Shown in pieces: positions 37,511-59,659 of a stretch of DNA of 64,000 nucleotides. Source of the stretch: Candidatus Methylomirabilota bacterium (lineage in GTDB: Bacteria; Methylomirabilota; Methylomirabilia; Methylomirabilales; Methylomirabilaceae); NCBI GenBank assembly GCA_028870115.1, contig JAGWQH010000036.1:1-64000 (forward strand), written 5' to 3'. The stretch's first letter is position 1, and each line of letters opens with the position of its first letter. Under the pieces are notes generated by a model. That model was not told where the DNA came from. It did no database searches and saw only the letters and a list, made by a program, of their open reading frames with translations. The position numbers were made by a program, and so were the translations under genes.

Positions 37511-37562
37511 TGAATCGCCTAATCGGGATAGACAAATCAGTATGCTCAATCAGGGAGGGTAC

Positions 37563-40041: not shown

Positions 40042-40078
40042 CGAGGCAGTCGAAGATAAAATGGAATCGGAGGGAGCC

Positions 40079-40861
40079 ATGGACTTCCAGACGCTTGAAT
40101 TGCAGATGGAGGGCAGCCTCGCGATCATCACATTGAACCGCCCAAAGGCGCTGAATGCGATCAATCTGGCGATGGTCGGGGAGTTGGAACAGGCGGTACG
40201 CCAGGTCCGGGACGACCCGGGCGTCCGGGTGGTGGTGATCACGGGCGCAGGGGACAAGGCGTTCGCTGCCGGGGCCGACATCACCGAGTTCAAGGCGATG
40301 AGCCCGATTGACGCGTGGATGTTTGTCCGGCGCCTCCAGCAGCTCTTTCTGGAGATCGAGCGGTTGCCAAAGCCGGTCATTGCTGCGGTCAACGGGTATG
40401 CGCTGGGTGGAGGGTGCGAGCTGTTGATGGCCTGTGACATGGTCTATGCGTCGGAGGCGGCCAGGATCGGCCAGCCTGAGATCAACCTCGGGATTATCCC
40501 GGGCGCCGGAGGAACGCAACGGTTGGCGCGGCTGATCGGCAAACAGCGCGCGAAAGCGCTTGTGCTGACCGGCGAGATGATCGATGCTCAGGAGGCATGG
40601 GGTCTCGGTCTGCTGAACAAGGTCGTTCCGGCCGATCAACTGATGGTCGAGGTGAGAAAGCTTGCCGACAAGCTGGTCATGAAGGGTCCATTGGCGGTCA
40701 GAGCAGCCAAGGAGGCGATTGAGGACGGGTATGATATGGCGCTGGAGCGAGCGCTTGCCCATGAGGCTCAGTTGTTTGCGCTCTGCTTTGCGACTGAGGA
40801 CAAGGCCGAGGGCGTGAGCGCCTTCCTGGAGAAACGTCCGCCTACGTTCAAAGGAAAGTAG
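40079..40861 (+). CDS. Enoyl-CoA hydratase (crotonase family)
   Basis: This 260-residue crotonase hydrates 2-enoyl-CoA in fatty or branched-chain acyl degradation. It shows the CoA and oxyanion-hole regions AFAAGADITEF and ALGGGCELLMACD, and the second catalytic Glu in QPEINLGIIPGAGGTQRL. ATG 40079 has a GGAGGGA site five bases upstream; ATG 40061 would add six residues. Four bases separate it from the acyl-CoA dehydrogenase gene. Confidence 0.92.
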   Translation: MDFQTLELQMEGSLAIITLNRPKALNAINLAMVGELEQAVRQVRDDPGVRVVVITGAGDKAFAAGADITEFKAMSPIDAWMFVRRLQQLFLEIERLPKPVIAAVNGYALGGGCELLMACDMVYASEAARIGQPEINLGIIPGAGGTQRLARLIGKQRAKALVLTGEMIDAQEAWGLGLLNKVVPADQLMVEVRKLADKLVMKGPLAVRAAKEAIEDGYDMALERALAHEAQLFALCFATEDKAEGVSAFLEKRPPTFKGK

Positions 40862-40865
40862 CCGA

Positions 40866-42005
40866 ATGAAGTTCGAGCTGACTGAGGAACAGCGCCTGTT
40901 TCGGGAGATGGTACGCGACTTCGCCGCCAGAGAGGTCGCGCCGCTGGCCAAGCAGGTGGACGAAGAAGGGCTCTTCCCGCAGGAGACGGTCAAGAAGATG
41001 GGAGAGCTCGGGCTGATGGGCGTGGCGATCCCCACGGAATACGGCGGCGCCGGGTCGGACAATGTGTGCTACGCTATCGGTATGGAGGAGATCGCTCGAG
41101 CCTGCGCCTCAACCAGCGTCATTATGTCGGTTAACAACTCGCTGGTTGCCGATGCCCTGTATAAGTTCGGGTCGGAGGCCCAAAAGCAGCGCTACCTGAT
41201 CCCGCTGGCCGGCGGTAAGCTGCTCGGCTGCTTTGCGCTCAGCGAGCCGGGCGCCGGATCGGATGCGTCGGCCCAGCAGACCATGGTCGTCAGGGAGGGC
41301 GAGACATTCATCCTGAACGGGACGAAGAACTTCATTACGAATGCCTTGGAGGCTGATCTGGCGCTGGTCTTTGCCACGATCGATCGCCGTCTTCGAGCCA
41401 AAGGGGTCTGTGCCTTCCTGGTGGAGAAGGGCACGCCGGGCTTCACCATCTCGAAGGTGGAGAAAAAATTGGGGCTCCACGGTACCAGTTGCTGTCAGGT
41501 CGTCTTCGAACAGTGCCGCGTACCTGCCGACAACCTGCTGGGCGAGCTTGGGCAGGGGTTCAGGATCGCCATGATTACTCTTGATGCCGGCCGGATCGGC
41601 ATCGCGGCGCAGGCGGTGGGGATCGCCCAGGCGGCGCTGGACATCTCGATCAGGTACGCCAAGGAGCGGGTCGCCTTCGACAAGCCGATTGCGTCGTTTC
41701 AGGCGATACAATGGATGATCGCTGATATGGCGGTGCAGATAGAAGCGGCGAGGCTGCTCACCTATCGGGCGGCCTGGCTGAAGGATAAGGGGCTTCGGCA
41801 TACCAAGGAATCGGCGATGGCGAAGCTGTTCGCGTCGGAGACCGCCAGTCGGGCCGCTACGAAGGCGCTCCAGATTCACGGCGGCTACGGCTATCTCTAT
41901 GATTTTCCGGCCCAGCGGCTATTCCGCGACGCCCGCATCACTGAGATCTACGAGGGAACGTCTGAGATTCAGCGGCTGGTAATCGCGCATCAATTGCTGA
42001 ATTAG
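40866..42005 (+). CDS. Acyl-CoA dehydrogenase
   Basis: This 379-residue flavoprotein oxidises an acyl-CoA to the 2-enoyl-CoA and passes electrons to ETF. It has LGCFALSEPGAGSDASAQQT, FILNGTKNFITNA, the QIHGGYGYLYDFPAQRLFRD segment, and the catalytic Glu in RITEIYEGTSEIQRLVI. The C-terminal Glu position suits short-chain or branched dehydrogenases, but chain length cannot be fixed. It lies between the crotonase gene and, after a palindromic repeat, the ETF genes. Confidence 0.94.
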   Translation: MKFELTEEQRLFREMVRDFAAREVAPLAKQVDEEGLFPQETVKKMGELGLMGVAIPTEYGGAGSDNVCYAIGMEEIARACASTSVIMSVNNSLVADALYKFGSEAQKQRYLIPLAGGKLLGCFALSEPGAGSDASAQQTMVVREGETFILNGTKNFITNALEADLALVFATIDRRLRAKGVCAFLVEKGTPGFTISKVEKKLGLHGTSCCQVVFEQCRVPADNLLGELGQGFRIAMITLDAGRIGIAAQAVGIAQAALDISIRYAKERVAFDKPIASFQAIQWMIADMAVQIEAARLLTYRAAWLKDKGLRHTKESAMAKLFASETASRAATKALQIHGGYGYLYDFPAQRLFRDARITEIYEGTSEIQRLVIAHQLLN

Positions 42006-42127: not shown

Positions 42128-42934
42128 ATGCCACTGAATATCGTTGTGTGTATCAAGCAGATTATCGATCCCGAGATTCCGATGAGCCAGTTCATGATCG
42201 ATCCCCGGACCAAGCGACAGGTCCAGGGGAACAACCCGCTGGTCATCAGTCCGTATGACGCTAATGCGCTCGAGGTGGCGATTCAGCTCAAGGAGAAGCA
42301 GGGCGCCACGGTGACGGCCATCAGTATCGGCGGCGCAACCGCGATGACCGCGCTGAGAAGCGCGTTGTCGATGGGCGCCCACGAGGCGATCCTGGTCAAT
42401 GAGCCGCTTCTGGTGGGCTCTGATCAGCGGGGGATTGCCCATGCGCTGGCGAACACGATCCGGAAGGCGGGCGCATATGACCTGATTCTGACCGGCTGCG
42501 AGTCGGGGGACTGGGCAGATCGGGCCGTCCCGGCCTTTCTGGCTGAAGAGCTCGAGATCGGGTATGTCGGATATGTCACCCGGATCGAGGTGAAGGATGG
42601 ACAGGTGGTCGTTCGTCGAGTGGTAGAGGATGGGTATGAGCTGATCGAAGCCAAGACCCCTCTTCTAGCAGCCATCAGCTCTGACGAGACGAATGCTCCC
42701 CGCTACGCCAAGCTGAGGGATATTATGACAGCCGCCAAGAAGACGATTCCCGTCTGGAAGGCGGCGGATCTCGGGCTCGACCAGGAGAGAATCGGCTCGG
42801 GTACCGCCAAGGTCGCGATCACCGATGTCTATATCCCGGTCAAAGAGTCTAAGTGCGAAATGATCGAGGGGAATACGTCGGAGGAAAAGGCCGCGAACCT
42901 GGCGGCCAGGCTGCGCGAGCTCAAGCTGATTTGA
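42128..42934 (+). CDS. etfB: Electron transfer flavoprotein beta subunit
   Basis: This 268-residue EtfB binds AMP and, with EtfA, accepts electrons from the acyl-CoA dehydrogenase. It shows VCIKQIIDPEIPMSQF, ISPYDANALEVAIQLKE, GCESGDWADRAVPAFLAEEL and KTPLLAAISSDETN. It is followed by etfA 13 bases later. Confidence 0.93.
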   Translation: MPLNIVVCIKQIIDPEIPMSQFMIDPRTKRQVQGNNPLVISPYDANALEVAIQLKEKQGATVTAISIGGATAMTALRSALSMGAHEAILVNEPLLVGSDQRGIAHALANTIRKAGAYDLILTGCESGDWADRAVPAFLAEELEIGYVGYVTRIEVKDGQVVVRRVVEDGYELIEAKTPLLAAISSDETNAPRYAKLRDIMTAAKKTIPVWKAADLGLDQERIGSGTAKVAITDVYIPVKESKCEMIEGNTSEEKAANLAARLRELKLI

Positions 42935-42947
42935 TGAGAGGAGGGAG

Positions 42948-43937
42948 ATGCCCGGTATATTGGTGTTGGCGACGACGAAAGACGGTAGGCTCTCGCGAGA
43001 TACGCTGGAACTGCTTGCAGGCGCAAGCAGGCTGAAGGAGAAGCTGGCCCAGCCGGTGGCCGCAGCCATCTTGGGAACAGAGGTCGGTTCATACGTTCCG
43101 TTGCTGTTTGCGCACGGTGCCGATCAGGTCTATCGAGCTGAGCATCCCTTGCTTAAAGGGTATCAAGGTGATGCGTATACACTCGCCCTGCATCAGATCT
43201 GCGAGCGCGCTCAGCCGTCCGTCGTATTGCTGCCCGGCGATGTGACAGGACGCGAGCTGGGCCCGCGCCTGGCCTATCGGCTTCAGGCCGCCTTTATCGG
43301 GGAGTTCATCGATTTCGACCTGGACCAGGCATCCGGTCGGTTGCAGTTTACACGCTCGGCCTACGGGGGGAAGGCGATGGCGGTCGTCCAGCCTCGCATG
43401 AATTCGGTCGTCGCAACGGCCAAGCTCCGGACACTGGAGCCGGCCGTGCGAGAGGAGGGCCGCACGGGCGAGGAGATCCGAGTCGATGTAGTCCTAGAAG
43501 CCTCGCAGCTCAAGACGCACCTTACCAAGCGGGTCCAGGAGGAGGCGACCGGCATCAATCTGGGGGATGCCAAGATCGTGGTGAGCGGCGGGCGGGGAAT
43601 ACACGGATCGGACGGGTTCAAACTCCTCGAGGAGCTGGCGCAGGTCCTGAGGGGCGCTGTCGGCGCGTCGCGGGCCGCCACCGATGCCGGATGGGTCCCG
43701 CCATCCTGGCAGATAGGCCAGACCGGTAGGACCGTCAATCCGGAACTGTACCTTGCCTTCGGGATCTCCGGCGCGACCCAGCACGTCGCCGGAATCTCCG
43801 GCTCGAAGTGTATCGTGGCGGTGAATACTGATCCCGCGGCGCCGATCTTCAAGGTGGCCCAACTCGGCATCGTCGAAGATTGGAAGGCCGTAGCGACTGC
43901 GCTGACCCAACACTGCCGGGAACTAACGAAAAGATAA
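42948..43937 (+). CDS. etfA: Electron transfer flavoprotein alpha subunit
   Basis: This 329-residue EtfA carries FAD at its C-terminal domain: VSGGRGIHGSDGFKLLEELA, GASRAATDAGWVPPSWQIGQ, then TGRTVNPELYLAFGISGATQ. Each motif is close to the family consensus. Its partner EtfB is upstream and the likely electron acceptor, the membrane Fe-S protein, is directly downstream. Confidence 0.95.
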   Translation: MPGILVLATTKDGRLSRDTLELLAGASRLKEKLAQPVAAAILGTEVGSYVPLLFAHGADQVYRAEHPLLKGYQGDAYTLALHQICERAQPSVVLLPGDVTGRELGPRLAYRLQAAFIGEFIDFDLDQASGRLQFTRSAYGGKAMAVVQPRMNSVVATAKLRTLEPAVREEGRTGEEIRVDVVLEASQLKTHLTKRVQEEATGINLGDAKIVVSGGRGIHGSDGFKLLEELAQVLRGAVGASRAATDAGWVPPSWQIGQTGRTVNPELYLAFGISGATQHVAGISGSKCIVAVNTDPAAPIFKVAQLGIVEDWKAVATALTQHCRELTKR

Positions 43938-43952
43938 AACAGTAGTGCTGCC

Positions 43953-45926
43953 ATGACCCCCATGCGCGAGATCTACTGGAACATCCCGGGGCACCTGTTC
44001 CTGTACCTGCTGTTCTTTCCCTTCCTTGTCGTCTACGCCTACGGTATCTACCGGCATACCCGCATGATACTCGCGGGAGAGCCGGCTGCCGTCGTGGGCA
44101 GCCTATGGGACCGGTTCAAAGGCGTTGTCACGTATGCCTTGTGGCAGCGGCGGATCGCCAAAGATCCCCTCTCGGGGCTGCTGCACCGTTTGATCTCCTG
44201 GGGGTTTATCATCCTCTTTATCGCGACCTGTCTCGTAGCCCTTCAGGACTATCTCGGCATTCCCACCCTGCGCGGACAGTTTTACCTCTATTTTATGTCG
44301 CTGACCGTCGATCTGTTCGGGGTGGCGGCCATTGTCGGCGTGCTGATTGTGCTCGCCAGGCGTTATGGCCTGCGACCCGATCGGCTCCTGACGCCTCGTC
44401 TGGCCGAGAGTTACGGCATTCTGCTGGGGCTGCTTCTCATCATCCTGGTGACCGGATTTCTGATTGAGGGGTTGCGGATTTCGGCCACGGCCGATCCGTG
44501 GGGTCGTTGGTCTCCGGGCGGCTGGCTGGCATCCAGCCTGTTTCGTAGGACTGATCACGCCCAGCAGCTTTTCCTCCATCGGGTCCTCTGGTGGTCCCAT
44601 GCCACCATGGCTTTCACCTTCATCGCTCTTCTGCCCTATGGCGTGGGTATGCACATTACGTCTGCTGCCGCCAATGTCCTGCTGAAGAACCGGGAAGGCT
44701 CAGGGGTACTGCGACCGATCGATCTGGACCGAGCAGAGCGATTTGGCGCCGGAGCGATCAACCAGCTCACCTGGAAGGATCTCCTCGACCTCGAGGCGTG
44801 CACCGAGTGTGGCCGCTGCCAGGCTGCCTGTCCGGCCTGGACCACCGGCAAGCCGCTGACGCCAAAAGGAGTGATTATCGACCTGCGCGATCACATGCGC
44901 CGGGTGTACGACGGAGAGGATTCCCGAAAGATGGTCGGTGAGGTGATCTCCCACGATGCCCTGTGGGCCTGCACCACCTGTGGGGCCTGCCATCAGGAAT
45001 GCCCGATCTTCATTGAACCGATCCCGAAGATCGTCGAGATGCGTCGCCACCTGGTGATGGAAGAGGCCGCCTTTCCGGAGACGATGCAGGCGGCCTTGCG
45101 AAGCTTGGAAGAGCGGGGCCATCCGTTCCGTGGGGCGAGTGCCTCCAGGACCGACTGGGCAAAGGGGCTCGACGTGAAGATCGTAGCCGCGGACGGTCCG
45201 CCGGAGATACTATACTGGGTCGGCTGCACTGCGGCCTTTGATGAGCGAAACCAACAGGTGGCAGCGGCCTTCGCCAAGCTCCTGCAACGCGCCGGTATCG
45301 ATTTTGCGATCTTGGGCGAAGAGGAGCGATGCACGGGGGACCCAGCCCGACGGATCGGAAACGAGTATCTCTTCCAGACGATGGCCAGGGGGAACATCGC
45401 CACGCTGAACCGCTACGGCATCAAGAAGATCGTCACGACCTGCCCGCACGGCTTCAATACGATTAAGAACGAATACCCCAAGCTGGGAGGCAGCTACGAG
45501 GTTGTTCATCACACGCAGTTGCTGGCCGACTTGGTGAAAGAGGGACGCCTGCGGCCGGAGAAGCGGATCGATGGCGTGGCGTCGTTTCACGACCCGTGCT
45601 ATCTCGGACGGCACAACGGCGTCTACGACCCGCCCAGACAGCTTCTTGGCGCCATCCCAGGGCTCGCGGTCAAGGAGATGGACCGATGCCGGGAACGCGG
45701 CTTCTGCTGCGGCGCGGGGGGCGGGTTGATGTGGCTTGAGAAGAAGGCCGGCAAACGGGTAAGCTGGGAGCGGACCGAAGAGGCGCTGGCCCTTCAGCCG
45801 CAGGTACTGGCGAGCGCCTGTCCCTTTTGCCTGATCATGTTCGAGGATGCGCTGAAGGTGAAGGATGCGATCGGGCGGACCAGACCGCTTGACGTGGCAG
45901 AGCTGATGGCGCAAAGTGTAGAATAA
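43953..45926 (+). CDS. Membrane-bound Fe-S oxidoreductase, likely ETF:quinone reductase
   Basis: This 657-residue protein combines about six N-terminal transmembrane helices of the NarI/heterodisulfide-reductase gamma type (LFLYLLFFPFLVVYAYGIY onward, residues ~1-240), two 4Fe-4S motifs (CTECGRCQAACP and CTTCGACHQECP), and two C-terminal CCG domains (for example FHDPCYLGRHNG, CCGAGGGLMW and ASACPFCLIMFED). Such proteins sit next to etfBA in many anaerobes and are thought to move electrons from ETF to the quinone pool. The gene order here fits that role. Confidence 0.87.
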   Translation: MTPMREIYWNIPGHLFLYLLFFPFLVVYAYGIYRHTRMILAGEPAAVVGSLWDRFKGVVTYALWQRRIAKDPLSGLLHRLISWGFIILFIATCLVALQDYLGIPTLRGQFYLYFMSLTVDLFGVAAIVGVLIVLARRYGLRPDRLLTPRLAESYGILLGLLLIILVTGFLIEGLRISATADPWGRWSPGGWLASSLFRRTDHAQQLFLHRVLWWSHATMAFTFIALLPYGVGMHITSAAANVLLKNREGSGVLRPIDLDRAERFGAGAINQLTWKDLLDLEACTECGRCQAACPAWTTGKPLTPKGVIIDLRDHMRRVYDGEDSRKMVGEVISHDALWACTTCGACHQECPIFIEPIPKIVEMRRHLVMEEAAFPETMQAALRSLEERGHPFRGASASRTDWAKGLDVKIVAADGPPEILYWVGCTAAFDERNQQVAAAFAKLLQRAGIDFAILGEEERCTGDPARRIGNEYLFQTMARGNIATLNRYGIKKIVTTCPHGFNTIKNEYPKLGGSYEVVHHTQLLADLVKEGRLRPEKRIDGVASFHDPCYLGRHNGVYDPPRQLLGAIPGLAVKEMDRCRERGFCCGAGGGLMWLEKKAGKRVSWERTEEALALQPQVLASACPFCLIMFEDALKVKDAIGRTRPLDVAELMAQSVE

Positions 45927-46128: not shown

Positions 46129-47823
46129 ATGTCTGAGCAGAACGACCTGAAGCGGATCGAGGAAGAGAAGGCGCGGTGGGAGGCCGACACGCTGAAGCCT
46201 GCCCTTGCTCAAACGCCTGAACGGGCCGAGCGCTTCACGACGGCGTCAATGACCCCGGTCGAGCGCCTCTACACACCGGCCGACCTGTCCGAATGGGATT
46301 ACCTGCGGGAGCTTGGATTTCCCGGCGACTACCCCTACACCCGCGGGGTTCAGCCGACGATGTACCGCGGCAAGCTCTGGACCATGCGGATGTTCGCCGG
46401 GTACGGGACCGCCGACGAAACCAACCGACGGTTCAAGTATCTGCTCGAGCAGGGCCAGATGGGGCTGTCCACCGCCTTCGATCTGCCGACCTTGATGGGG
46501 TATGATTCGGACCACCCCTCTTCGGCCGGGGAGGTGGGCAAGTGCGGTGTTGCCATCGATTCGCTCGCCGATATGGAGACGCTGTTCGAGGGGATTCCGC
46601 TCGGCGAGGTCACCACCTCCATGACGATCAGCTCTCCCGCCGCAGTCTTGTGGGCGATGTATATTGCCGTCTGCGAGAAGCAGGGCGTCCCGTACCATCA
46701 GATCGGCGGTACGGTCCAAAACGATATCCTGAAAGAGTACATCGCGCAGAAAGAGTATATCTATCCGATCGAACCGTCGGTCCGGCTGGTGACCGACACC
46801 ATCCTGTTCGGTGCGCAGCACCTGCCGCGCTGGAATACCGTCAGTATCAGCGGCTACCATATCCGGGAGGCGGGGGCCACCGCATTACAGGAACTCGCCT
46901 TCACGCTGGCTGATGGAATGGTCTATGTGGAGGAGAGCATCAAGGCGGGTCTTGGGGTCGACGCGTTTGCCCCACGCCTCTCCTTTTTCTTCGATTGCCA
47001 CAACGACCTGTTCGAGGAAGTGGCCAAGTTCCGGGCGGCCAGAAGGCTGTGGGCTCGGATCATGCGGGAGCGGTTCGGGGCGAAAGATCCCCGTTCCTGG
47101 CTGTTGCGGACGCATGCCCAGACAGCAGGGTGTTCCCTCACCGCCCAGCAGCCGCGCAACAATATCATCAGGGTCGCGATCCAGGCGCTGGCGGCCGTCC
47201 TGGGTGGCACGCAATCGCTGCACACCAACGCCATGGACGAGGCGTTGGCGCTCCCGACGGAAGAAGCCGCCACCATCGCGCTGCGGACGCAGCAGATCAT
47301 CGCGCATGAGAGCGGCGTCACCAACACGATCGATCCGGTGGCCGGCTCCTACTATGTCGAGACGTTGACAAATCAGATGGAGGAGGGGGTCTGGGAATAT
47401 TTCCGGCGTATCGATGACCTGGGCGGGATGATCCGGGCGATCGAGAAGGGTTTCCCCCAGCGCGAGATCGCCGATGCCGCCTACGCATATCAGCAGGCTA
47501 TCGAACGGGGCGAGAAGATCATCGTTGGCGTGAATCGATTCACGGCAGACGAAGAAGTACCGATCCCGACCCTCTCCATCGACCGTGAGGCCGAGGCACG
47601 GCAGATTGAAAGTCTTCAGCGGCTTCGCCGCGCGCGCGACAAGGATGTGGTGATGCGGTCGCTCGAGGCGCTTGGTCGAGCGGCAGCCGGGAATGATCCG
47701 TGGGACAAGGATCTGTTGATGCCGAGGATTCTTGACGCGGTTCGGGCCTATGCGACCTTGGGCGAGATCATGGGCGTCTTTCGCGAGGTCTGGGGTGAAT
47801 ACAAGGAGCCCTCGATTATTTAG
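46129..47823 (+). CDS. mcmA: Methylmalonyl-CoA mutase, catalytic (large) subunit
   Basis: This 564-residue TIM-barrel subunit catalyses the B12-dependent rearrangement of methylmalonyl-CoA to succinyl-CoA. It has [20 protein letters not shown] (Tyr of the TMY motif, as in true MCM), [51 protein letters not shown] and [14 protein letters not shown]. The B12-binding domain is missing and is encoded separately at 47968, the split form seen in archaea and several bacterial phyla. The TMY tyrosine argues against isobutyryl-CoA mutase. Confidence 0.93.
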
Positions 47824-47967: not shown

Positions 47968-48375
47968 ATGGCAGCGAAGGTAGAAAAGAAGATCCGCGTG
48001 TTAATCGCCAAGCCGGGCCTTGACGGGCACGATCGGGGCGCCAAGGTTATCGCCAGAGCCTTCCGCGACGCCGGGATGGAGGTGATCTACACCGGGCTTC
48101 GGCAGACCCCCGAGATGATCGTGAGCGCGGCCATCCAGGAAGACGTGGATGCCATCGGCATGTCCTGTCTGTCCGGGGCTCATATGTACCTGTTCCCAAG
48201 GGTCATGGAGCTGCTCAAGGAGCGTGGGGTCGATGACATCGTCGTCTTTGGTGGTGGCACAATCCCCTCCGATGACATCCCGAAACTCAAAGCGGCCGGG
48301 CTCGCCACTATCTTTACGCCAGGTACGACTACGACCGAAGCGATCGAGTTCGTGAAAAATAGCATCAGGAAGTGA
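47968..48375 (+). CDS. mcmB: Methylmalonyl-CoA mutase, B12-binding (small) subunit
   Basis: This 135-residue cobalamin-binding protein has the base-off DxHxxG motif in [18 protein letters not shown]. It also has [19 protein letters not shown] and [18 protein letters not shown]. It completes the mutase with the large subunit upstream. ATG 47968 follows AGGAG. The two subunits are separated by a palindromic repeat yet would still be co-transcribed. Confidence 0.94.
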
Positions 48376-48507: not shown

Positions 48508-48645
48508 ATGCGGCCGGTGTACATGGTCTCGGGAGGCGTGAGCAAGTTCACGAAGGCTCGGCTGGACGTCACCTTCCACCGATGGTGAAGGAGGCGTACG
48601 ACTATGCCCTCAAGGACGTTGGGCTAGACGCAAGATTGTAAATGA
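48508..48645 (+). pseudogene. Truncated duplicate of the 5' end of the thiolase gene
   Basis: ATG 48508 onward matches the thiolase start at 49332 almost base for base (MRPVYMVSGGVSKFTKAR here). A one-base deletion (TTCCACCGATGG versus TTCCAACCGATGG) creates an early TGA, and the similarity stops near 48645 after an internal deletion. A very good ribosome site (GAGGAGG) sits before it, better than that of the intact gene. It is therefore a dead partial copy. Confidence 0.8.
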
Positions 48646-48657
48646 TGAGATGAACGG

Positions 48658-48990
48658 ATGAGGCTGCCACATGCTGAGAGAGCGCAAGTCGATCGCGACA
48701 AGCTGGAACATTATCTGGTATCTCAATCGCACCCGATCGGGAGATCGAAGGCGAGGTTCTTTCGGGGGGTCGGGTTTGATGAATCAAACCTGGCGATCCT
48801 TCAGCAAGCCTTGATCGGAATTGCCAGCGCAGAAGAGATCGTGGAGACTGCAGCCTCAGCATACGGTACCAAGTATATCGTTGATGGTTCGATCGCGACA
48901 CCGTATGGTGATAAGGTCAGGTTGCGAACGGTGTGGATCATTGAAGAGGGTCAGGATCCCCCACGCTTCGTAACTGCATATCCGATCTGA
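48658..48990 (+). CDS. DUF6883-like small protein
   Basis: This 110-residue protein has the pattern of DUF6883: DRDKLEHYLVSQSHPIGRSK, ARFFRGVGFDESNLAILQQA, and a strand-rich end YIVDGSIATPYGDKVRLRTV then WIIEEG. It is followed 20 bases later by a DUF4926 gene. These two families often occur as neighbours, which suggests a toxin-antitoxin-like pair; no activity is proven to my knowledge. Confidence 0.65.
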   Translation: MRLPHAERAQVDRDKLEHYLVSQSHPIGRSKARFFRGVGFDESNLAILQQALIGIASAEEIVETAASAYGTKYIVDGSIATPYGDKVRLRTVWIIEEGQDPPRFVTAYPI

Positions 48991-49010
48991 TATGGTTGGG
49001 AGGGGATGAA

Positions 49011-49241
49011 ATGATTCGAGAGCTGGAGACAGTCGTGCTCACCCATGATGTTCCTGAGCGCGGCCTGGAGAAGGGCGACGTCGGGGCAGTGGTACATCGG
49101 TACGTTGACAAGGGGGCGTATGAGGTTGAGTTCGTCACTGCTGAAGGAAAAACGGTTGCGGTCCTCACGTTGACGGAGGCGGATATACGCCCGATGGGGA
49201 GCGGTGAGATTCTTCATGCCAGGGAGTTTGCCTCGGCATAG
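49011..49241 (+). CDS. DUF4926 small protein
   Basis: This 76-residue DUF4926 protein has TVVLTHDVPERGLEKGDVGA, VVHRYVDKGAYEVEFV and AVLTLTEADIRPM, a small beta-barrel-like fold. GGGAGGGG precedes the ATG. It is the partner of the DUF6883 gene just upstream. Function unknown; a pairwise inhibitor role is only inferred. Confidence 0.72.
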   Translation: MIRELETVVLTHDVPERGLEKGDVGAVVHRYVDKGAYEVEFVTAEGKTVAVLTLTEADIRPMGSGEILHAREFASA

Positions 49242-49331: not shown

Positions 49332-50642
49332 ATGCGGCCGGTATACATAGTCTCGGGAGGCGTGAGCAAGTTCGCGAAGGCTCGGCCGGACGTCACCTTC
49401 CAACCGATGGTGAAGGAGGCGTACGACTATGCCCTCAAGGACCTCGGGCTCGAGCACCGGAAGTTCTTCGAGATTGTAGACGGATCGGTTGCATCGTACT
49501 TCTCTGACCATTTTCAGCGACAGTTGATGTCGGGCATCATGGTGCAGGACTACCTGGGGCTCTGTCCAAAGCCGAGCCACCGGGTCGAAGGCGGAGGCGC
49601 CACGGGAGGGCTCTGCTTTCAAGAGGCATGGAAGTCGGTGGCCTCGGGCCTCATGGATGTTTGTGTGGCCTACGGCTTCGAGACGATGTCGCATGTGAAT
49701 ACCTGGAAAGGGAATGAATTCATCGCGCTGGCCTCCGATGTGAGCTTTGACTATCCCGTGGGCGGTTTCTATAGCGGTTACTACGCGATGATGGTGGTCC
49801 GGCACATGCAGGAGTTCGGCACGACCGTCGAGCAGATGGCCCACGTCTCAGTCAAGAATCACAATAACGCCTTTCATAACCCCTATGCCCAGAAGCGAAG
49901 GCTCCTCACGATCGAAGATGTACGTCGCGCGCCGATGGTGGCCTGGCCGCTGACCCGTCTGGATATCTGCGTTATGTCCGATGGGGCAGCAACCACGATC
50001 CTCGCCAGCGAGGAGGGGGTCAACAAACTGGAGAAGGCGAGTGGTAAGCGGCTCAAGCCGGCCAAGATCGTTGGCATCGGTCGTGGGACTGACGCGATGC
50101 GGATGGCCGACCGACCTCACCGCCAGGTGCTGCTGCTCCCGCATGAGCGGGCCAGCGACTACCGGGGTCTCAAGTACCCGGGCATCCATTCATTTCGGGC
50201 AGGCCGGATGGCTGCCAAGCTGGCCTACGAAATGGCCGGGATCACCCATCCGATCAAGGAGCTGGATTTCATCGAACTGCACGATGCCTATACCTCCTCT
50301 GAGATTCAGACCTACGAGGACATGGGCCTCTGTAAGTACGGGGAGGGCGGCCGATGGACGGAGGAGGGGAACCCATTTCTGCCTAACCTCGACTACGGTC
50401 TGACGCTCAAAAAGCCCGGGACGCTTCCGGTTAACCCCTCGGGAGGCCTGATCGCCTGCGGCCATCCGGTGGGGGCTACCGGCCTGATGCAGGCGGTCTT
50501 CGCCTTGTGGCAACTGCAAGGGAGCATCAAAAAGCATTTTGGTAACGACCGACTGCAGGTCAAGGGTGCCAGACGTGGGGCGATACACAGCCACGCCGGC
50601 ACCGGGACATACGTCACCGTGAGCATCATGGAGAAGGTCTGA
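49332..50642 (+). CDS. Thiolase-family protein lacking the usual nucleophilic Cys
   Basis: This 436-residue protein is a thiolase of the archaeal/SCP-x-like group that works with DUF35 partners. It has VEGGGATGGLCFQEAW, FETMSHVNTWKGNEF, IKELDFIELHDAYTSSEIQT and the C-terminal GGLIACGHPVGATGLMQ with its catalytic-type His. At the position of the nucleophilic Cys (VE-x-x-C-A-S-G-G) it has Gly89; the nearest Cys is residue 95. It may be a divergent thiolase, a non-catalytic scaffold, or use another residue. ATG 49332 is chosen because family similarity begins there. The DUF35 gene follows. Confidence 0.85.
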   Translation: MRPVYIVSGGVSKFAKARPDVTFQPMVKEAYDYALKDLGLEHRKFFEIVDGSVASYFSDHFQRQLMSGIMVQDYLGLCPKPSHRVEGGGATGGLCFQEAWKSVASGLMDVCVAYGFETMSHVNTWKGNEFIALASDVSFDYPVGGFYSGYYAMMVVRHMQEFGTTVEQMAHVSVKNHNNAFHNPYAQKRRLLTIEDVRRAPMVAWPLTRLDICVMSDGAATTILASEEGVNKLEKASGKRLKPAKIVGIGRGTDAMRMADRPHRQVLLLPHERASDYRGLKYPGIHSFRAGRMAAKLAYEMAGITHPIKELDFIELHDAYTSSEIQTYEDMGLCKYGEGGRWTEEGNPFLPNLDYGLTLKKPGTLPVNPSGGLIACGHPVGATGLMQAVFALWQLQGSIKKHFGNDRLQVKGARRGAIHSHAGTGTYVTVSIMEKV

Positions 50643-50775: not shown

Positions 50776-51342
50776 ATGGCGAACGCCAAGGGTGAGAGAG
50801 CTAATCGCAAGCTTACGGACGAGGAGCCCGTCGCGTTGCCGGAGACCGACGACGGGACTGTCCTATTCAATGTCCCGTTCCCCAAGGACTTGGCCCAGCT
50901 CAAAACTATGGCCCCTATCATCCTCAAGCAGCCGTATCAGATTGATTACATCCACAGCTACGGACAGGACTCTCCATTCTTTGCCGGCCTGGCTAATGGG
51001 AAGTTGCTAGGGACCGTCTGCACGAAGTGTGGCTACAAATATGCGACGCCCAAGCTGCACTGTATGGATTGCGGTATTGAGTGCGACTGGTTCGAACTGC
51101 CGCAGGTCGGCGCGGTCCACACCTTCACCGTCTGTTACTTCGGGAGCGAGGAGTTCCTGAAGGAGACCCCCTTTGTGCTGATCCTGGTGGAGTGGCCTGG
51201 TGTCGATACGCTGTTTCTCTCGCGGCTGCTTGGTGTCGGTCCGCTGAACCCTTCAATGAACTGGGTCGGGATGAAGGTTCGGGCAAAGTTTCGGCGTCTC
51301 TCCAAGTTCAAACCGACCGATGTCTACTTCGTCCCGGCGTAG
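50776..51342 (+). CDS. DUF35 zinc-ribbon/OB-fold acyl-CoA-associated protein
   Basis: This 188-residue protein has a rubredoxin-like zinc ribbon (CTKCGYKYATPKLHCMDC) followed by an OB-fold (VGAVHTFTVCYFGSEEF, LILVEWPGVDTLFLSRLLG). In archaea DUF35 proteins bridge thiolase and HMG-CoA synthase and let acetoacetyl-CoA pass between them. Here it directly follows the thiolase gene, so a complex of the two is likely. The N-terminal ~60 residues are extra compared with the minimal family. Confidence 0.88.
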   Translation: MANAKGERANRKLTDEEPVALPETDDGTVLFNVPFPKDLAQLKTMAPIILKQPYQIDYIHSYGQDSPFFAGLANGKLLGTVCTKCGYKYATPKLHCMDCGIECDWFELPQVGAVHTFTVCYFGSEEFLKETPFVLILVEWPGVDTLFLSRLLGVGPLNPSMNWVGMKVRAKFRRLSKFKPTDVYFVPA

Positions 51343-53804: not shown

Positions 53805-55364
53805 ATGCCCGACCTCACCGATAAATCCCTCGAATCCTGGATCTGGGACGCCGCCTGTTCCATCCGCGGCGCCAAGGATGCCCCGAAATACAAGGAGTTC
53901 ATCCTCCCGCTCATCTTTACCAAACGGCTGTGCGACGTCTTCGATGACGAGATCAACCGCATCGCCCAGGAAGTCGGCTCGCGCGCCAAGGGGTTCAAGC
54001 TCGTCAAGCACGACAAGAAGCTCGTCCGTTTTTTCCTCCCGCTGGAGCCGAAGAACCCCGACGATGCCGTCTGGTCCATCATCCGCACGCTCTCGGACAA
54101 GATCGGCGAGCAGCTCACCACCCACCTCCGCGCTATTGCCGACGCCAATCCGCTGCTCAAGGGCATCATCGACCGCATCGACTTCAACGCCACCACCCAC
54201 GGCCAGCGCGACATTGACGATGCTCGCCTGAGCAATCTCATCGAGGCCATCAGTGCCAAGCGGCTCGGGCTGACCGACGTCGAGGGCGACATCATCGGCC
54301 GCAGCTACGAATACCTCATCCGCAAGTTTGCCGAGGGCGGCGGGCAGAGCGCGGGCGAGTTCTACACCCCCGGCGAGGTGGGCGAGATCATGGCGGTCAT
54401 TATGGACCCGCAGCCCGGCATGGGCATGTACGATCCCACCTGCGGCTCCGCCGGCCTGCTCATCAAGTGCGAGCTGGCGCTGGACGGGAAGATGAAGGCC
54501 GCCGGGAAGAAGACCTATGCACCCCTCAAGCTCTATGGCCAGGAACTGGAGCCCGGCACCTGGGCCATGGCGAACATGAATATGATCATCCACGACATGG
54601 AGGGCGAGATTCAGATCGGCGACACCTTCCGCAACCCCAAATTCCGCCAGGGCAACCGCCTGCAGACCTTCGACCGCGCCGTGGCTAATCCGATGTGGAA
54701 CCAGACCGAGTTCAAGGAAAAGGACTACGACGCCGACGAACTCGATCGCTTTCCAAAGGGCGCGGGCTATCCCGGCGGCAAGGCCGACTGGGGCTGGGTG
54801 CAGCACATTCTCGCCAGCCTCAAGCCGGAGGGCCGTGCCGCGGTGGTGCTTGACACCGGAGCCGCCTCGCGCGGCTCCGGTAATGCCAACACCAATAAGG
54901 AAAAAGAGGTCCGCCGCTGGTTCGTGGAGCAGGATCTTATCGAGGGCGTCATCTACCTGCCGGAAAATCTGTTCTACAACACCACCGCCCCAGGCATCAT
55001 CCTCGTGTTGAACCGGGCCAAGCCGAAAGAGCGCGAGGAAAAGCTCTTCCTGCTCAACGCCAGCCGCGAATTCACTAAGGGAGACCCGAAGAACTACATC
55101 CCCGACGACGCCATCCGCCGCATTGCCGACACCTTCATCGCATGGAAGGAAGTGGAGAAATACTCGCGTATCGTTAGCCATGAAGAGATCGCCAAGAACG
55201 ACTACAACATCTCGCCGAGCCGCTACATCCACACCGGCGAAGCGGATGAATACCGGCCGATTGCGGAGATCGTGGAGGAGTTGGACGCGCTGGAGGACGA
55301 AGCGCGGGCGACGGACAAGGCGCTCAGGGCTGTTCTGACCCAAATCGGTAAATCATCGCCATGA
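53805..55364 (+). CDS. hsdM: Type I restriction-modification methyltransferase subunit HsdM
   Basis: This 519-residue N6-adenine DNA methyltransferase modifies the host recognition site together with HsdS. It has the N-terminal helical domain (LESWIWDAACSIRGAKDAPK), SAM motif I in MYDPTCGSAGLLIKCEL, and a preceding GQSAGEFYTPGEVGEIM. Motif IV is NPMW (VANPMWNQTEF) rather than the textbook NPPF/Y. A final QIGKSSP tail overlaps the next gene by ATGA. The NPMW form is unusual but placed correctly for catalysis. Confidence 0.94.
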   Translation: MPDLTDKSLESWIWDAACSIRGAKDAPKYKEFILPLIFTKRLCDVFDDEINRIAQEVGSRAKGFKLVKHDKKLVRFFLPLEPKNPDDAVWSIIRTLSDKIGEQLTTHLRAIADANPLLKGIIDRIDFNATTHGQRDIDDARLSNLIEAISAKRLGLTDVEGDIIGRSYEYLIRKFAEGGGQSAGEFYTPGEVGEIMAVIMDPQPGMGMYDPTCGSAGLLIKCELALDGKMKAAGKKTYAPLKLYGQELEPGTWAMANMNMIIHDMEGEIQIGDTFRNPKFRQGNRLQTFDRAVANPMWNQTEFKEKDYDADELDRFPKGAGYPGGKADWGWVQHILASLKPEGRAAVVLDTGAASRGSGNANTNKEKEVRRWFVEQDLIEGVIYLPENLFYNTTAPGIILVLNRAKPKEREEKLFLLNASREFTKGDPKNYIPDDAIRRIADTFIAWKEVEKYSRIVSHEEIAKNDYNISPSRYIHTGEADEYRPIAEIVEELDALEDEARATDKALRAVLTQIGKSSP

Positions 55365-57028
55365 AGCAGCGGATCTTCATCAGTAGCGTGCAAAAGGAGT
55401 TCGCTGAAGAGCGCCAGGCGCTCAAGGCCTATCTCCTTGGCGATGCTCTGCTGAGCCGCTTTTTTGATGTCTTCTTGTTCGAGGACCTCCCTGCAAGCGA
55501 CCGCCGCGCCGATGCCGCCTATCTTGATGAAGTCCGCCGCTGCGACCTCTATTTGGCCTTGCTGGGCAACGAATACGGCGCGCAAGGCGCCGACGGCCTA
55601 TCCCCGACGCAACGCGAATTCGACGAAGCGACCCGGCTTGGCAAACACCGCCTTGTCTTCGTCAAAGGCGCCACCGATGAGGATAAGCACCCGAAGATGC
55701 GGGCACTGATGGCCGTAGCGGGCGCACAGTTGATTCGCCGCCGGTTCACCACTGTGGCCGAGTTGATCGCCGCCGTTTATGTCAGTCTCGTGCAGCATCT
55801 CGAAGAAACAGGGGTTCTTCAGTTTCTGCCCTTCGACGAACGCCTGCATCCCGAGGCGTCCCTGGACGATCTCGACCCAAAGACCATCGCCCAATTTGTC
55901 CGGCGGGCGCGGCATGAACGCCAGTTTCCCCTCGCCGAATCCTCGCCGATTGCTAACATCCTCACCCACTTGAACCTTCTTCGGGAAGGGCGACCTACCC
56001 AGGCAGCTCTATTACTTTTTGGCCGCGATCCCCAGCGGTTCTTCCCCTCGGCCGAGATCCGGTGCATGCACTTCCACGGCACCGAAATCCAGCGACCTGC
56101 GCCCTTCTACCGGATTTTCAAAGAGAATCTGTTCTCCCAGGTAGACCACGCTGTAGATTTCGTTCTCTCTAAGATCGATTTCAGCGTCGGCACCCGCGCT
56201 GAATCCGTGCAGGTCCCTACCGCCTACGAGGTCCCGCCGGATGTCATCCGCGAAGCCATTGTCAACGCCGTTGTCCACCGCGATTACCTGCAACCTTCCG
56301 CCATTCAGGTTTCGGTATTCAAAGATCGGATCGAAATCGGCAACGCCGGTGAAATCCTGCCGCCGCTCACCTTGTCGCAGTTGCGCCGGCCACACCGGTC
56401 GATTTCCCGCAACGCCCGCCTCTGCGAAGCCCTTTATCTCGCCGGCTACATCGAGAAATTCGGCACGGGTACTCTCATGATGATTCGGGAAAGCGCAGCC
56501 CACGCCCTGCCAGAGCCCGACTTCGATAGCCGCCCCGGCGAATTCTCCTCCACCCTCTGGCGCGATTGGCTGACCCAGACCGTTGTGGCCCGGATGGGCT
56601 TAAATGACCGGCAGAGCGCCGTCATCCCTCACCTGAAAATCAGACGCCGGATCACGAATGCCGAATATCGCGAGCTTACGGGCGTCATCGCCAGGACTGC
56701 TTCCCGCGATCTGGAGGATCTGGTTGCCAAAGGTGTGCTTCAGCAGTCGTCCAAGACAGGGCGTGGCACGACCTACACGTTGGTGCAGAAACCGGACATA
56801 AACCGGATAAACAAGACATCTCCCCTCCCGCCGACGGAACAGGACATAAACGAGACAAACAAGACATCCACCTCGTCCGCCATTGGCTCAGAAATGGCTC
56901 AATCGGCTCAAACGCCGTCAACACCAACCCGCCGTAAAGCCGCCAAACCAGCCGAAAAACGGGCTACCCATGCGCCCAATACGCCCAAAGCTGCCCGCCG
57001 CAGGGGGAAGAAAGAGGGCAAGGCATGA
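55361..57028 (+). CDS. DUF4062 (TIR-like) protein with GHKL-type ATPase and winged-helix ends
   Basis: This 555-residue protein begins with DUF4062 (RIFISSVQKEFAEERQALKA, FLFEDLPASDRRADAAYLDE, LYLALLGNEYG), a fold related to TIR domains. The middle and C-terminal parts resemble Schlafen/RecG-like ATP-binding proteins: IREAIVNAVVHRDYLQPSAI, IEIGNAGEILPPL and YIEKFGTGTLMMI. A winged-helix region (NAEYRELTGVIARTASRDLE) and a basic low-complexity tail follow. DUF4062 occupies the place normally held by AlbA_2. It is translationally coupled to hsdM and to the next gene, so it belongs to the R-M operon. Its activity is unknown; regulatory or defence roles are possible. Confidence 0.8.
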   Translation: MKQRIFISSVQKEFAEERQALKAYLLGDALLSRFFDVFLFEDLPASDRRADAAYLDEVRRCDLYLALLGNEYGAQGADGLSPTQREFDEATRLGKHRLVFVKGATDEDKHPKMRALMAVAGAQLIRRRFTTVAELIAAVYVSLVQHLEETGVLQFLPFDERLHPEASLDDLDPKTIAQFVRRARHERQFPLAESSPIANILTHLNLLREGRPTQAALLLFGRDPQRFFPSAEIRCMHFHGTEIQRPAPFYRIFKENLFSQVDHAVDFVLSKIDFSVGTRAESVQVPTAYEVPPDVIREAIVNAVVHRDYLQPSAIQVSVFKDRIEIGNAGEILPPLTLSQLRRPHRSISRNARLCEALYLAGYIEKFGTGTLMMIRESAAHALPEPDFDSRPGEFSSTLWRDWLTQTVVARMGLNDRQSAVIPHLKIRRRITNAEYRELTGVIARTASRDLEDLVAKGVLQQSSKTGRGTTYTLVQKPDINRINKTSPLPPTEQDINETNKTSTSSAIGSEMAQSAQTPSTPTRRKAAKPAEKRATHAPNTPKAARRRGKKEGKA

Positions 57029-57324
57029 GCCGGACGAACAAATCTGGGAAGCAGGGTGGGATGGACGGCCTGATTGCGTTGGCCCGGCAACTCGAACAGG
57101 TTAAAGCGCAGGCCCGGGCGCTTGGAATCTTTACCGACGACCGCGAATTACTGGCATGCCCCAACTGTGGATTGCTGGAGGATGTGACGGCCGATGGACT
57201 GCTGGTGACCTATCCGAAAGATAGCGTCGATCTGAAGGATTGCGGTCTGCGCTTCTGTCCGGTGGACGAAACCCATTTTGCATGTCCGAAGTGCGGAACC
57301 AGGATCAAGGCGGTGATCTTATGA
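57025..57324 (+). CDS. Small zinc-ribbon protein
   Basis: This 99-residue protein has an N-terminal helix (LIALARQLEQVKAQARALGI) and two Cys pairs, CPNC near residue 48 and CPKC near residue 90, that would bind one zinc ion. Both ends overlap neighbours by four bases (ATGA), so it is part of the R-M operon. I do not recognise a named family. Confidence 0.7.
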   Translation: MSRTNKSGKQGGMDGLIALARQLEQVKAQARALGIFTDDRELLACPNCGLLEDVTADGLLVTYPKDSVDLKDCGLRFCPVDETHFACPKCGTRIKAVIL

Positions 57325-58643
57325 GCGCGTCTATGGCACGGACCAAAACACCGGAGGGCCGACATTCCGGTCCGCCAACCCCCGCAAACGCCGGTGCGGC
57401 GTGGCGCAGCGCCCGGTTCGAGGACATCTGCTCGCGAGTTCAAGATTCCGCAAGTCCAACTTCAACCGGAAAGAGGCTATATCTTGGCCTCGAACATTTA
57501 GCATCCGGTCAACCGTCCCTTATCGGGCGCGGCAGCGAATCCGAAGTTAAAAGCAGCAAGACCATATTTCGATCCGGCGATGTGCTGTTTGGAAAGTTAC
57601 GTCCATACCTGCGCAAGTCAGTGATCGTCCGGGAAGATGGCATCTGCTCAACGGACATTTTGGTGTTTCGCGCGACCGAGAAGTGCATCCCAGAGTTCAT
57701 CTGCTTACTAACGCACACGGACGAATTCGTCGGCCACGCAATAGCTACAACATCCGGTGTGCAACATCCCCGCACATCGTGGTCTGGCTTACGAGAGTTC
57801 GAACTGTATGTTCCACCCATCCCCGAACAGCAGAAGATTGCGGCGATGTTGGGGGTGGTGCAGCGAGCGATCGAGCAGCAGGAGCGGCTACTGGCGCTGA
57901 CCACCGAACTGAAAAAGACGCTCCTTCATCAACTCTTCACCCAAGGTCTCCACGGCGAACCCCAAAAACAAACCGACGTCGGCCCCGTGCCGGAGAGTTG
58001 GGAAGAGCGCGCGTTGGAACAGGCTGGCGATGTTATTTACGGCATCCAAGCGGCGGTCGCAGCCAATCTAAAACCAATTGGCACGAAGATTCTGACGAAT
58101 AAGAACATCACGCTTGATGGAACAATTACCCTTGATTCGATCAATTACTTCGTCCTGAAAACCAAGCGGCACCACGAGACGGTGTTGAAAAAGGGCGACC
58201 TGCTTTTCAACTGGCGCAGCGGAAGCAAGGAGCACATAGGAAAGACCGCTTACTTCGACCTCAATGGAGAGTTCACTCATTCGTCGTTCATTCTGCGTGT
58301 CCGACCAAATGACGAGGTAACCGGGCGGTATTTGTTCTACTATCTGAACTTCCTCCGTGAATCGGGCTACTTCAAAAAGACTCAGACGTTTTCGGTCAAC
58401 GCCAAGTTCAACAAGAGCGCAATCAACCGGCTTCCGACGTATCTGCCTGGCAAGGACGAGCGCCGAGATATTGTCACCGCGCTCGATGCGGTAGCCAAGA
58501 AGATCGATATGCTACTCGTGAAGAAGCATCTGCTTGAAGATCTCTTTCGCACCATGCTGCACCAGTTGATGACGGCGCAGATTCGCGTCCACGCCCTCGA
58601 TCTGCCAGAACTGAAATGGTTCCTTGCGGAGAACGCACGATGA
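57321..58643 (+). CDS. hsdS: Type I restriction-modification specificity subunit HsdS
   Basis: HsdS reads the DNA target for both methylation and restriction. The 440-residue product has two target recognition domains. The first has LYLGLEHLASGQPSL, GDVLFGKLRPYLRK and ELYVPPIPEQQKIAAMLG followed by a coiled helix. The second has PESWEERALEQAGDVIYGIQ, GDLLFNWRSGSKEHIGKTAY and YLPGKDERRDIVTALD followed by a final helix. Full length and domain repeat are normal. ATG 57321 overlaps the zinc-ribbon gene; the target sequence cannot be predicted. Confidence 0.92.
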   Translation: MSASMARTKTPEGRHSGPPTPANAGAAWRSARFEDICSRVQDSASPTSTGKRLYLGLEHLASGQPSLIGRGSESEVKSSKTIFRSGDVLFGKLRPYLRKSVIVREDGICSTDILVFRATEKCIPEFICLLTHTDEFVGHAIATTSGVQHPRTSWSGLREFELYVPPIPEQQKIAAMLGVVQRAIEQQERLLALTTELKKTLLHQLFTQGLHGEPQKQTDVGPVPESWEERALEQAGDVIYGIQAAVAANLKPIGTKILTNKNITLDGTITLDSINYFVLKTKRHHETVLKKGDLLFNWRSGSKEHIGKTAYFDLNGEFTHSSFILRVRPNDEVTGRYLFYYLNFLRESGYFKKTQTFSVNAKFNKSAINRLPTYLPGKDERRDIVTALDAVAKKIDMLLVKKHLLEDLFRTMLHQLMTAQIRVHALDLPELKWFLAENAR

Positions 58644-59272
58644 GCAACGAACCTCAATCCCAGTTTCTCCTCTACCAAACCGACGACGGGCAGACCCGGC
58701 TGGAAGTCCGCCTGGAGAATGAGACGGTCTGGCTGACGCAGAGCCAGATGGCCGAGCTGTTTCAAACCTCCATTCCGAACGTGAGCATGCACATCCGCAA
58801 CATCTTCGCAGAGGGAGAGTTGCAGGACGCGGCAACTGTTAAGGATTTCTTAACAGTTCGACAGGAGGGCAGCCGGCAGGTGTCCCGCTCGGTGGAACAT
58901 TACAACCTCGATGTGATTATCTCCGTAGGCTACCGCGTCAAGTCGCATCGCGGCACGCAGTTCCGCATCTGGGCGACGCAACGGCTGCGGGAATACATCG
59001 TCAAGGGCTTTGCGCTGGATGACGAGCGACTCAAGCGGGCCGGGGGCGGGAATTACTTCGAGGAACTGCTGGCCCGAATCCGCGACATCCGGTCATCGGA
59101 GAAGGTGTTCTGGCGAAAGGTGCTGGAAATTTACGCGACGAGCATTGACTATGACCCAAGCCTCGAGGCGTCGCAGCTTTTCTTCGCCACGGTGCAGAAC
59201 AAAATGCACTGGGCGGCGCACGGGCAGAACAAAAGAAAGAATTATGAATTAATAATGGGGAATGAGGAGTGA
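58640..59272 (+). pseudogene. RhuM-family protein, C-terminally truncated
   Basis: The 210-residue frame matches RhuM over its N-terminal two thirds: QTRLEVRLENETVWLTQSQM, AELFQTSIPNVSMHIRNIF, LDVIISVGYRVKSHRGTQFR, IWATQRLREYIVKGFALDDE and ATSIDYDPSLEASQLFFATV. Right after NKMHWAAHGQ, where the family continues for 100 or more residues, it changes to foreign NKRKNYELIMGNEE and stops. The break coincides with the left edge of the four-helix-bundle cassette. RhuM genes often occur inside type I R-M operons; their role is unknown. This copy may be non-functional. Confidence 0.75.
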
Positions 59273-59641: not shown

Positions 59642-59659
59642 ACAATTGAAGGATTGATC

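Follow-up and report, generated by a model that had tools for sequence, protein, structure and literature searches.

The window, a stretch of 64,000 nucleotides from a Candidatus Methylomirabilota bacterium (contig JAGWQH010000036.1), contains a metabolic operon in which genes for an enoyl-CoA hydratase, an acyl-CoA dehydrogenase, ETF beta, ETF alpha, an Fe-S oxidoreductase and the subunits of an acyl-CoA mutase are followed, on the same strand, by the gene for a thiolase-fold protein without the nucleophilic cysteine, here designated THL(G) (Table 1). The next gene encodes a DUF35 protein. A preliminary description had called both this partner gene and the GHPVGATG motif of the thiolase intact, and the sequence bears this out. 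A DUF35 gene lies directly 3' of THL(G), at a distance of no more than 700 bp, in 79 of the 80 loci of the closest relatives (best 80 of 349); the THL(G) locus of L059 gave no match to the DUF35 protein of the window. THL(G) and its DUF35 partner probably form a complex.

The large subunit of the window mutase carries the motifs RMFAG and IAQKEY, whereas the second mutase of the same genome has RQYAG and IARGTY. We take the presence of Phe and Gln for Tyr and Arg to mark the window enzyme as an isobutyryl-CoA mutase, not a methylmalonyl-CoA mutase. Gln is found in all 15 operon mutases compared (the window and 14 loci, leaving out the fragment in L006), together with Phe in 12 and Tyr in 3. 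The hydratase gene has the same place in G029, and no match to it was found in the 19.5 kb around THL(G) of G025.

Just behind the gene for the mutase small subunit, the thiolase gene's first 122 bases occur a second time at 93% identity (48508-48628, +); DUF6883 and DUF4926 genes (48658-49241) come next, and then the intact thiolase gene. In G025, the thiolase gene comes directly after the mutase. At the same junction, G033 (L189) and G026 (L194) have insertions of 5.8 and 6.6 kb, that of G033 including a DUF4926 gene; no copy of the thiolase 5' end was found in these two insertions. The start of the THL(G) gene is perhaps an insertion hotspot. The operon is flanked by a gene for an AbiU/AIPR-type protein (37542-39413) and by a type I restriction-modification cluster (53805-62626, +) with methylase, specificity and restriction genes, a PDC-S05-type gene and one gene weakly similar to pAgo-associated genes. 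A 270-residue protein composed mostly of ankyrin repeats is encoded at 35409-36221 (+).

Table 1. Genes and residues of the THL(G) operon in the window, and the second thiolase-like gene of two congeners
Feature	Position	Strand	Basis or remark
Enoyl-CoA hydratase/isomerase, 4 bp before the dehydrogenase	40061..40861	+	
Short-chain-type acyl-CoA dehydrogenase	40866..42005	+	
ETF beta	42128..42934	+	
ETF alpha	42948..43937	+	
Membrane Fe-S oxidoreductase with CCG domains	43953..45926	+	Likely ETF:quinone electron transfer (putative role)
Acyl-CoA mutase large subunit, isobutyryl-CoA-mutase type	46129..47823	+	Phe/Gln versus Tyr/Arg of the genome's second mutase
B12-binding small subunit of the mutase	47968..48375	+	
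Cys-less thiolase-fold protein THL(G), 436 aa	49332..50642	+	Translation; NCBIfam NF004982, 667 bits; AlphaFold pLDDT 88.5, pTM 0.92
Gly89 codon GGC at the nucleophile position	49596..49598	+	HMMER alignments; Gly in 81/81 rows
Cys95, variable residue	49614..49616	+	Cys in 65/81 rows
His317-Asp-Ala-Tyr (HDAY), counterpart of HDCF/HDAF, without Cys	50280..50291	+	H317, D318, A319 81/81; Y320 79/81
Cys376-Gly-His378 of the GHP motif	50457..50465	+	His378 81/81; Cys376 80/81 (Ala in L058)
His419-Ser-His421, family-specific C-terminal loop	50586..50594	+	Each 81/81
DUF35 partner (zinc ribbon and OB fold)	50776..51342	+	Pfam PF12172 (zf-ChsH2), PF01796 (OB_ChsH2_C)
544-aa very divergent thiolase-like gene with C-terminal extension	L191:14928-16559; L193:648-2279	+; -	NCBIfam and profile search

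Nucleophile position, conservation and predicted fold

THL(G) matches the Pfam families Thiolase_N and Thiolase_C_1. Its best profile match, NCBIfam NF004982/PRK06365, falls below the curated cut-off of 695 bits, which was exceeded in none of 95 genomes of the window's phylum and in none of 150 genomes of one Chloroflexi class; the name of this model, 'thiolase domain-containing protein', carries no function. The local motif reads VEGGGATGG. HMMER alignments to solved thiolases place Gly89 opposite the nucleophilic cysteine of 7yvy, 6esq, 7pxp (BbsB) and 6hsj, so that the glycine first reported at the nucleophile position is confirmed.

In genome contigs, 349 relatives of THL(G) were found, and the best 80, which are 73-97% identical to it, were kept. 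Together with the window they form 81 aligned rows; the overlapping rows L001, L003 and L004 of its own genome are not included, and the paralogue L002 served separately for comparison. The nucleophilic cysteine of the VExxC elbow is replaced by Gly in every row, and Gly88, Gly89, His317, Asp318, Ala319, His378, His419, Ser420 and His421 are all invariant. Because Gly88 and Gly89 do not vary, the change is neither chance nor a sequencing error. The acid/base cysteine of the SCP2-thiolase motif HDCF is absent as well, Ala319 of HDAY standing in its place, as it is from the HDAF thiolases 7yvy and BbsB. The histidine of the GHP motif is present. The thiolase alignments suggest that the loop of His419, Ser420 and His421 lies at the active site. 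In the Gly89 column, the paralogue L002 of the same genome reads VEGACASSG and contains the cysteine; it lies with its own DUF35 gene on another contig and is the only other DUF35-type thiolase matched in this genome.

The preliminary description had stated that a cysteine occurs only at residue 95. This is correct for the local motif, but the residue varies (65 C, 11 A, 3 S, 1 G and 1 N) and is thus no surrogate nucleophile; Cys95 was ruled out in that role. Judged from the alignments, the original observation holds and is stronger than first stated because the whole family has Gly89. The family-wide change supports a distinct enzyme that would be unable to form an acyl intermediate on a cysteine at position 89.

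The record titles of the best 80 relatives name Methylomirabilota, Deltaproteobacteria, Beta-/Burkholderiales, Planctomycetota, Schekmanbacteria, Calditrichaeota, Zixiibacteriota, Melainabacteria, Chloroflexi, Acidobacteriota, Nitrospinota, Neomarinimicrobiota, Myxococcales and LCP-89. All 80 are MAG records; therefore, individual placements may be binning errors. Since these relatives were picked by similarity, the deeper rows weigh more. A deeper clade at 55-58% identity (L128-L130) keeps GGGATGG, HDAY and CGHP in 3/3 members. At 39-42% identity (L122 and L123), GGGATG is kept in both members, but they have YDSY and GAP; YDSY in place of HDAY resembles the Tyr motif of the aldolases Sal and Ltp2. 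In a maximum-likelihood tree of 41 rows, whose deeper joins carry long-branch warnings, all 27 rows with Gly and both histidines fall on one branch (100/99), and the Gly-Tyr pair of L122 and L123 is its sister (99/96). A literature search of titles and abstract openings, with few subscription journals, found no paper recognizable as dealing with this family.

The Gly-type thiolases with YDSY are encoded at L122:919-6731 and L123:641-1873. The gene in L122 lies among genes for an isocitrate/isopropylmalate-type dehydrogenase, a TIM-barrel protein and dihydroxyacetone kinase (Dak1), and its product is perhaps an aldolase that releases dihydroxyacetone. A further thiolase-like group (L124:3018-4202, +; L125:3058-4242, +; L131) has Pro at the nucleophile position (IENGPASG) and keeps HDAF and GHP.

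The AlphaFold model of THL(G), built with 26 aligned sequences, clearly has a predicted thiolase fold. Residues 123-144 are poorly modeled, yet many of them are invariant. VIA-align places the model with the DUF35-type and SCP2-type thiolases: the highest scores were obtained for 7yvy (Z 55.0, rmsd 1.7, 367 aligned residues), 6esq (52.9), 4yzo (52.2) and 7pxp (50.7), followed by the aldolases Ltp2 (Z 45.5) and Sal (Z 45.0), and the classical thiolases scored ~38-39. The Pyrococcus thiolase PFC_04095 (7yvy), which has the closest fold, the archaeal acetoacetyl-CoA thiolase of the HMG-CoA synthase complex (6esq) and the benzoylsuccinyl-CoA thiolase BbsB (7pxp) all share the histidines of HDxF and GHP with THL(G), but retain the nucleophilic cysteine. 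ST0096 of Sulfolobus tokodaii (4yzo) resembles THL(G) in having a thiolase fold without this cysteine; its residue there is Ser. Passages of PMC12329534 describe 6esq and benzoylsuccinyl-CoA thiolase as DUF35 complexes.

Gene context in other genomes

A mutase subunit was matched in 19 of the 80 loci and in 17 of the 59 that have at least 2.5 kb of upstream DNA; part of the gene calls in the relatives' loci came from a simple codon-bias script, with rough starts and some rough genes. Among the 95 genomes of the window's phylum, 17 have a THL(G) match (E <= 1e-130), and the mutase marker lies within ~9 kb of it in 14 of these. The marker is found without a THL(G) match in 9/18 genomes of the same order and in 56/60 more distant ones, although among those nine, THL(G) is cut by the contig end in G033, and the contigs of G034 and G028 end inside or just behind the mutase. 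A mutase dependence was rejected, since genomes often have the marker but no THL(G). In L007, L008, L011 and L013, the B12-binding small subunit of the mutase directly precedes THL(G), with the large subunit unmatched in the locus.

In L029, and by likeness in L022, genes for an AtoB thiolase, 3-hydroxybutyryl-CoA dehydrogenase, acyl-CoA dehydrogenase, IcmA, IcmB, THL(G) and DUF35 overlap or nearly abut. Since this operon already has a true thiolase, THL(G) would do something else. No match to the hydratase of the window was found in these two loci, and hydratase-like genes lie directly 5' of THL(G) in L044, L074, L083 and L085. In L010, THL(G) is preceded by genes for a 2-oxoacid dehydrogenase E1 alpha (NCBIfam pyruvate dehydrogenase E1 alpha, above cut-off), E2, isovaleryl-CoA dehydrogenase and AtoB. 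The isovaleryl-CoA dehydrogenase scores 547-643 bits against five such PDB sequences and at most 320 against others, and a dehydrogenase 73% identical to it is found in L064. Other THL(G) loci have genes for 3-oxoacid CoA-transferase, acyl-CoA ligase and other CoA_trans proteins (PF01144) nearby, while the neighbors checked with Pfam in L015, L066 and L084 are unrelated to acyl-CoA metabolism. These contexts point to isobutyrate/butyryl-CoA, leucine (isovaleryl-CoA) and acetoacetate pathways, none of which is singled out as the source of the substrate. Passages of PMC5017805 describe an isobutyryl-CoA mutase cluster with MeaB in syntrophic isobutyrate degraders, followed by beta-oxidation of butyryl-CoA; those passages name no thiolase of the THL(G) kind.

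G029 and G023, two congeners that gave no THL(G) match, retain the operon with a second acyl-CoA dehydrogenase gene after the mutase. This gene is followed by a MeaB-like ORF (recognized by eye), a CoA-transferase pair (Pfam-supported for L191 only) and, at the operon's end where the window has THL(G), the 544-residue gene of Table 1. This protein matches the NCBIfam thiolase model PRK06064 with E values of 1.9e-8 and 2.4e-8, far under the curated cut-offs; Pfam Thiolase_C_1 matches one copy weakly and the other not at all. In a profile search, His332 and His384 align with the two catalytic histidines, and a hand alignment places Ala at the cysteine position (PTHAASSSG). HHalign with the THL(G) family was not significant (probability 2.7%), a structure model from two sequences reached a pLDDT of 33, and no match was found in a plasmid collection. 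By its sequence, the 544-residue protein is apparently thiolase-like and Cys-less. If this is true, the operon calls for a Cys-less thiolase fold, which has been supplied twice.

Proposed reaction and alternatives

We consider it the leading interpretation, with a probability of about 0.42, that THL(G) and DUF35 form a Cys-independent C-C lyase of the retro-aldolase type in short or branched acyl-CoA catabolism. The two proteins would bind acyl-CoA, and the two retained histidines would perform acid-base chemistry with no covalent Cys intermediate. Like the Gly-type aldolases Sal and Ltp2, they would most likely catalyze a reversible (retro-)aldol cleavage, with a short or branched beta-hydroxyacyl-CoA as the substrate. 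His378 of the GHP motif, relieved of activating Cys89, would handle the beta-hydroxyl group, His317 would hold the enolate oxyanion, and the backbone NH of Gly89 would hold the cleaved carbonyl; Cys376 or His419/His421 may return the proton. A role in short- or branched-chain acyl-CoA catabolism would suit the neighbors in the window, namely the isobutyryl-CoA-mutase-type mutase, the acyl-CoA dehydrogenase and ETF. The reaction type and the roles of the residues are thus proposed by analogy with related enzymes. The lack of a 3-hydroxyacyl-CoA dehydrogenase gene was dropped as an argument for an aldolase because the genome has such genes elsewhere.

The retention of both histidines favors a His-based variant of the Sal/Ltp2 chemistry, and makes a KSQ-like decarboxylase the main rival. 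KSQ-type decarboxylases have Gln in place of Cys, together with two histidines. On this reading, THL(G) would act on malonyl-type CoA esters such as methylmalonyl- or ethylmalonyl-CoA, for which two histidines and an oxyanion hole suffice and no nucleophile is needed; near genes for mutases and carboxylases, the reaction would serve repair or supply. Acyl-CoA mutases occur in some THL(G) operons, and TbSLP, which lacks the SCP2-thiolase cysteines, slowly decarboxylates malonyl-CoA, whereas Sal has no malonyl-CoA decarboxylase activity (both as given in parts of PMC12329534). However, the residue of THL(G) is Gly89 and not the KSQ glutamine, and the window mutase has Gln for the Arg of the second, methylmalonyl-CoA-mutase-like enzyme, which makes a dicarboxylic substrate unlikely there. 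Overall, we regard a decarboxylase as unlikely. A non-catalytic or regulatory partner, which binds acyl-CoA or holds DUF35 and the neighboring enzymes like a chain-length-factor subunit, seems to us still less likely. The nucleophile is lost, and THL(G) adjoins AtoB-type thiolases in L010, L022 and L029; on the other hand, the active-site histidines, Cys376 and the HSH loop are nearly invariant across many phyla, and the sole other DUF35-type thiolase matched in its own genome lies on a different contig together with a DUF35 gene of its own. Catalysis is supported by the conservation of both active-site histidines in 81/81 rows and by the separate, apparently Cys-less gene in the operon of the two congeners.

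Some other Cys-free acyl-CoA reaction, such as enoyl-CoA hydration or epimerization at the alpha-carbon, might fill a step missing from certain operons, given that L022 and L029 hold a thiolase, a 3-hydroxyacyl-CoA dehydrogenase, an acyl-CoA dehydrogenase and a mutase with the hydratase of the window unmatched. We judge this improbable: the window operon includes a hydratase-like gene, such genes directly adjoin THL(G) in L044, L074, L083 and L085, and we know of no precedent for either reaction in the thiolase fold. It is more improbable again that THL(G) is still a thiolase with Cys376, beside the GHP histidine, as its nucleophile. This cysteine is kept in 80/81 rows and in 3/3 of the ~57% clade, but it lies off the nucleophilic elbow, and Cys95, the nearest to the elbow by sequence, is not conserved. 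The least probable of these readings is that THL(G) stands in for HMG-CoA lyase and cleaves HMG-CoA into acetyl-CoA and acetoacetate during the breakdown of leucine, which was pursued because the beta subunit of methylcrotonyl-CoA carboxylase adjoins THL(G) in some Anaerolineae (L127). Among 150 genomes of one Chloroflexi class, with five weaker or paralogous rows excluded, THL(G) was found in 31 (30 full-length and the fragment G248), HMG-CoA lyase in 14 and the carboxylase in 41. THL(G) and the lyase never co-occur in these 150 genomes, but this exclusion is weak (Fisher p = 0.075), and the carboxylase shows no association with THL(G) (7/31 with and 34/119 without, p = 0.65). Among 20 genomes from various phyla that contain THL(G), the carboxylase occurs in 1 and HMG-CoA lyase itself in 3. 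The replacement thus has no clear support from co-occurrence in the 150 and 20 genomes, which fits a leucine route without the carboxylase only loosely.

A wider extension of the retro-aldolase reading, which we hold to be doubtful, is a hitherto unrecognized 'aldolytic' branch of short-chain beta-oxidation that spans phyla. Dehydrogenase and hydratase would supply branched beta-hydroxyacyl-CoAs, and a thiolase fold that works with His and without Cys would cleave them; 3-hydroxyisovaleryl-CoA, for instance, would yield acetone and acetyl-CoA, or 3-hydroxyisobutyryl-CoA would yield formaldehyde and propionyl-CoA. For this reaction, the cysteine would have been lost independently in at least two thiolase lineages (THL(G) and the 544-residue form of G029/G023). 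The profile libraries searched label the THL(G) family 'thiolase'. Should its members be unable to perform thiolysis, a false thiolase is being counted when pathways are reconstructed for many uncultured phyla (Methylomirabilota, Chloroflexota, Myxococcota and others), and a C-C cleaving step in the breakdown of branched short-chain acids is being overlooked.

Comparison with the steroid side-chain aldolases

The replacement of Cys by Gly is already known in the DUF35-bound thiolase-fold aldolases Sal and Ltp2, which the preliminary description had missed, and this precedent reduces the novelty of Gly89. What is new here is the Gly/His/His variant, found in part in mutase operons and catalogued without a function. 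The steroid side-chain aldolase complexes CtSal-Shy(DUF35) and TcLtp2-ChsH2(DUF35) (PDB 9myr and 6ok1) resemble THL(G) in fold, in Gly for Cys and in the DUF35 partner, at 24% identity in structural alignments. No steroid genes were seen in the window operon. The Ltp2 gene lies in a setting with acyl-CoA dehydrogenase and hydratase genes, and such a setting is common to THL(G) and these aldolases. A mycobacterial plasmid thiolase that adjoins an OB-fold gene has the normal Cys, and was ruled out as a stand-in for Ltp2.

According to passages of PMC12329534, from which alone the residues of both aldolases were taken, Sal and Ltp2 are DUF35-bound retro-aldolases that cleave beta-hydroxyacyl-CoA. 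In Sal, the Cys position is occupied by Gly, and in its substrate model the substrate hydroxyl touches the backbone amide of Gly89; for Ltp2, a role of the corresponding Gly is proposed. The catalytic pairs of the two enzymes are given there as Tyr294/Tyr344 and Tyr302/Cys304. The first Tyr belongs to YDCY/YDHF, whereas THL(G) has His317 of HDAY in 81/81 rows. Tyr344 and Gln352 lie 50 residues past the first Tyr, which equals the spacing of the two histidines in 7yvy and 6hsj (50 residues, counted by eye); judged from this offset, Sal and Ltp2 have probably lost the GHP histidine to Gln or Tyr, whereas THL(G) keeps His378. Because the His pair of THL(G) (HDAY and GHP) differs from this Tyr catalysis, the mechanism of Sal and Ltp2 cannot simply be copied. 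The Gly/His/His site of THL(G), between the thiolases (Cys/His/His) and Sal/Ltp2 (Gly/Tyr), would show the conversion of a thiolase into an aldolase.
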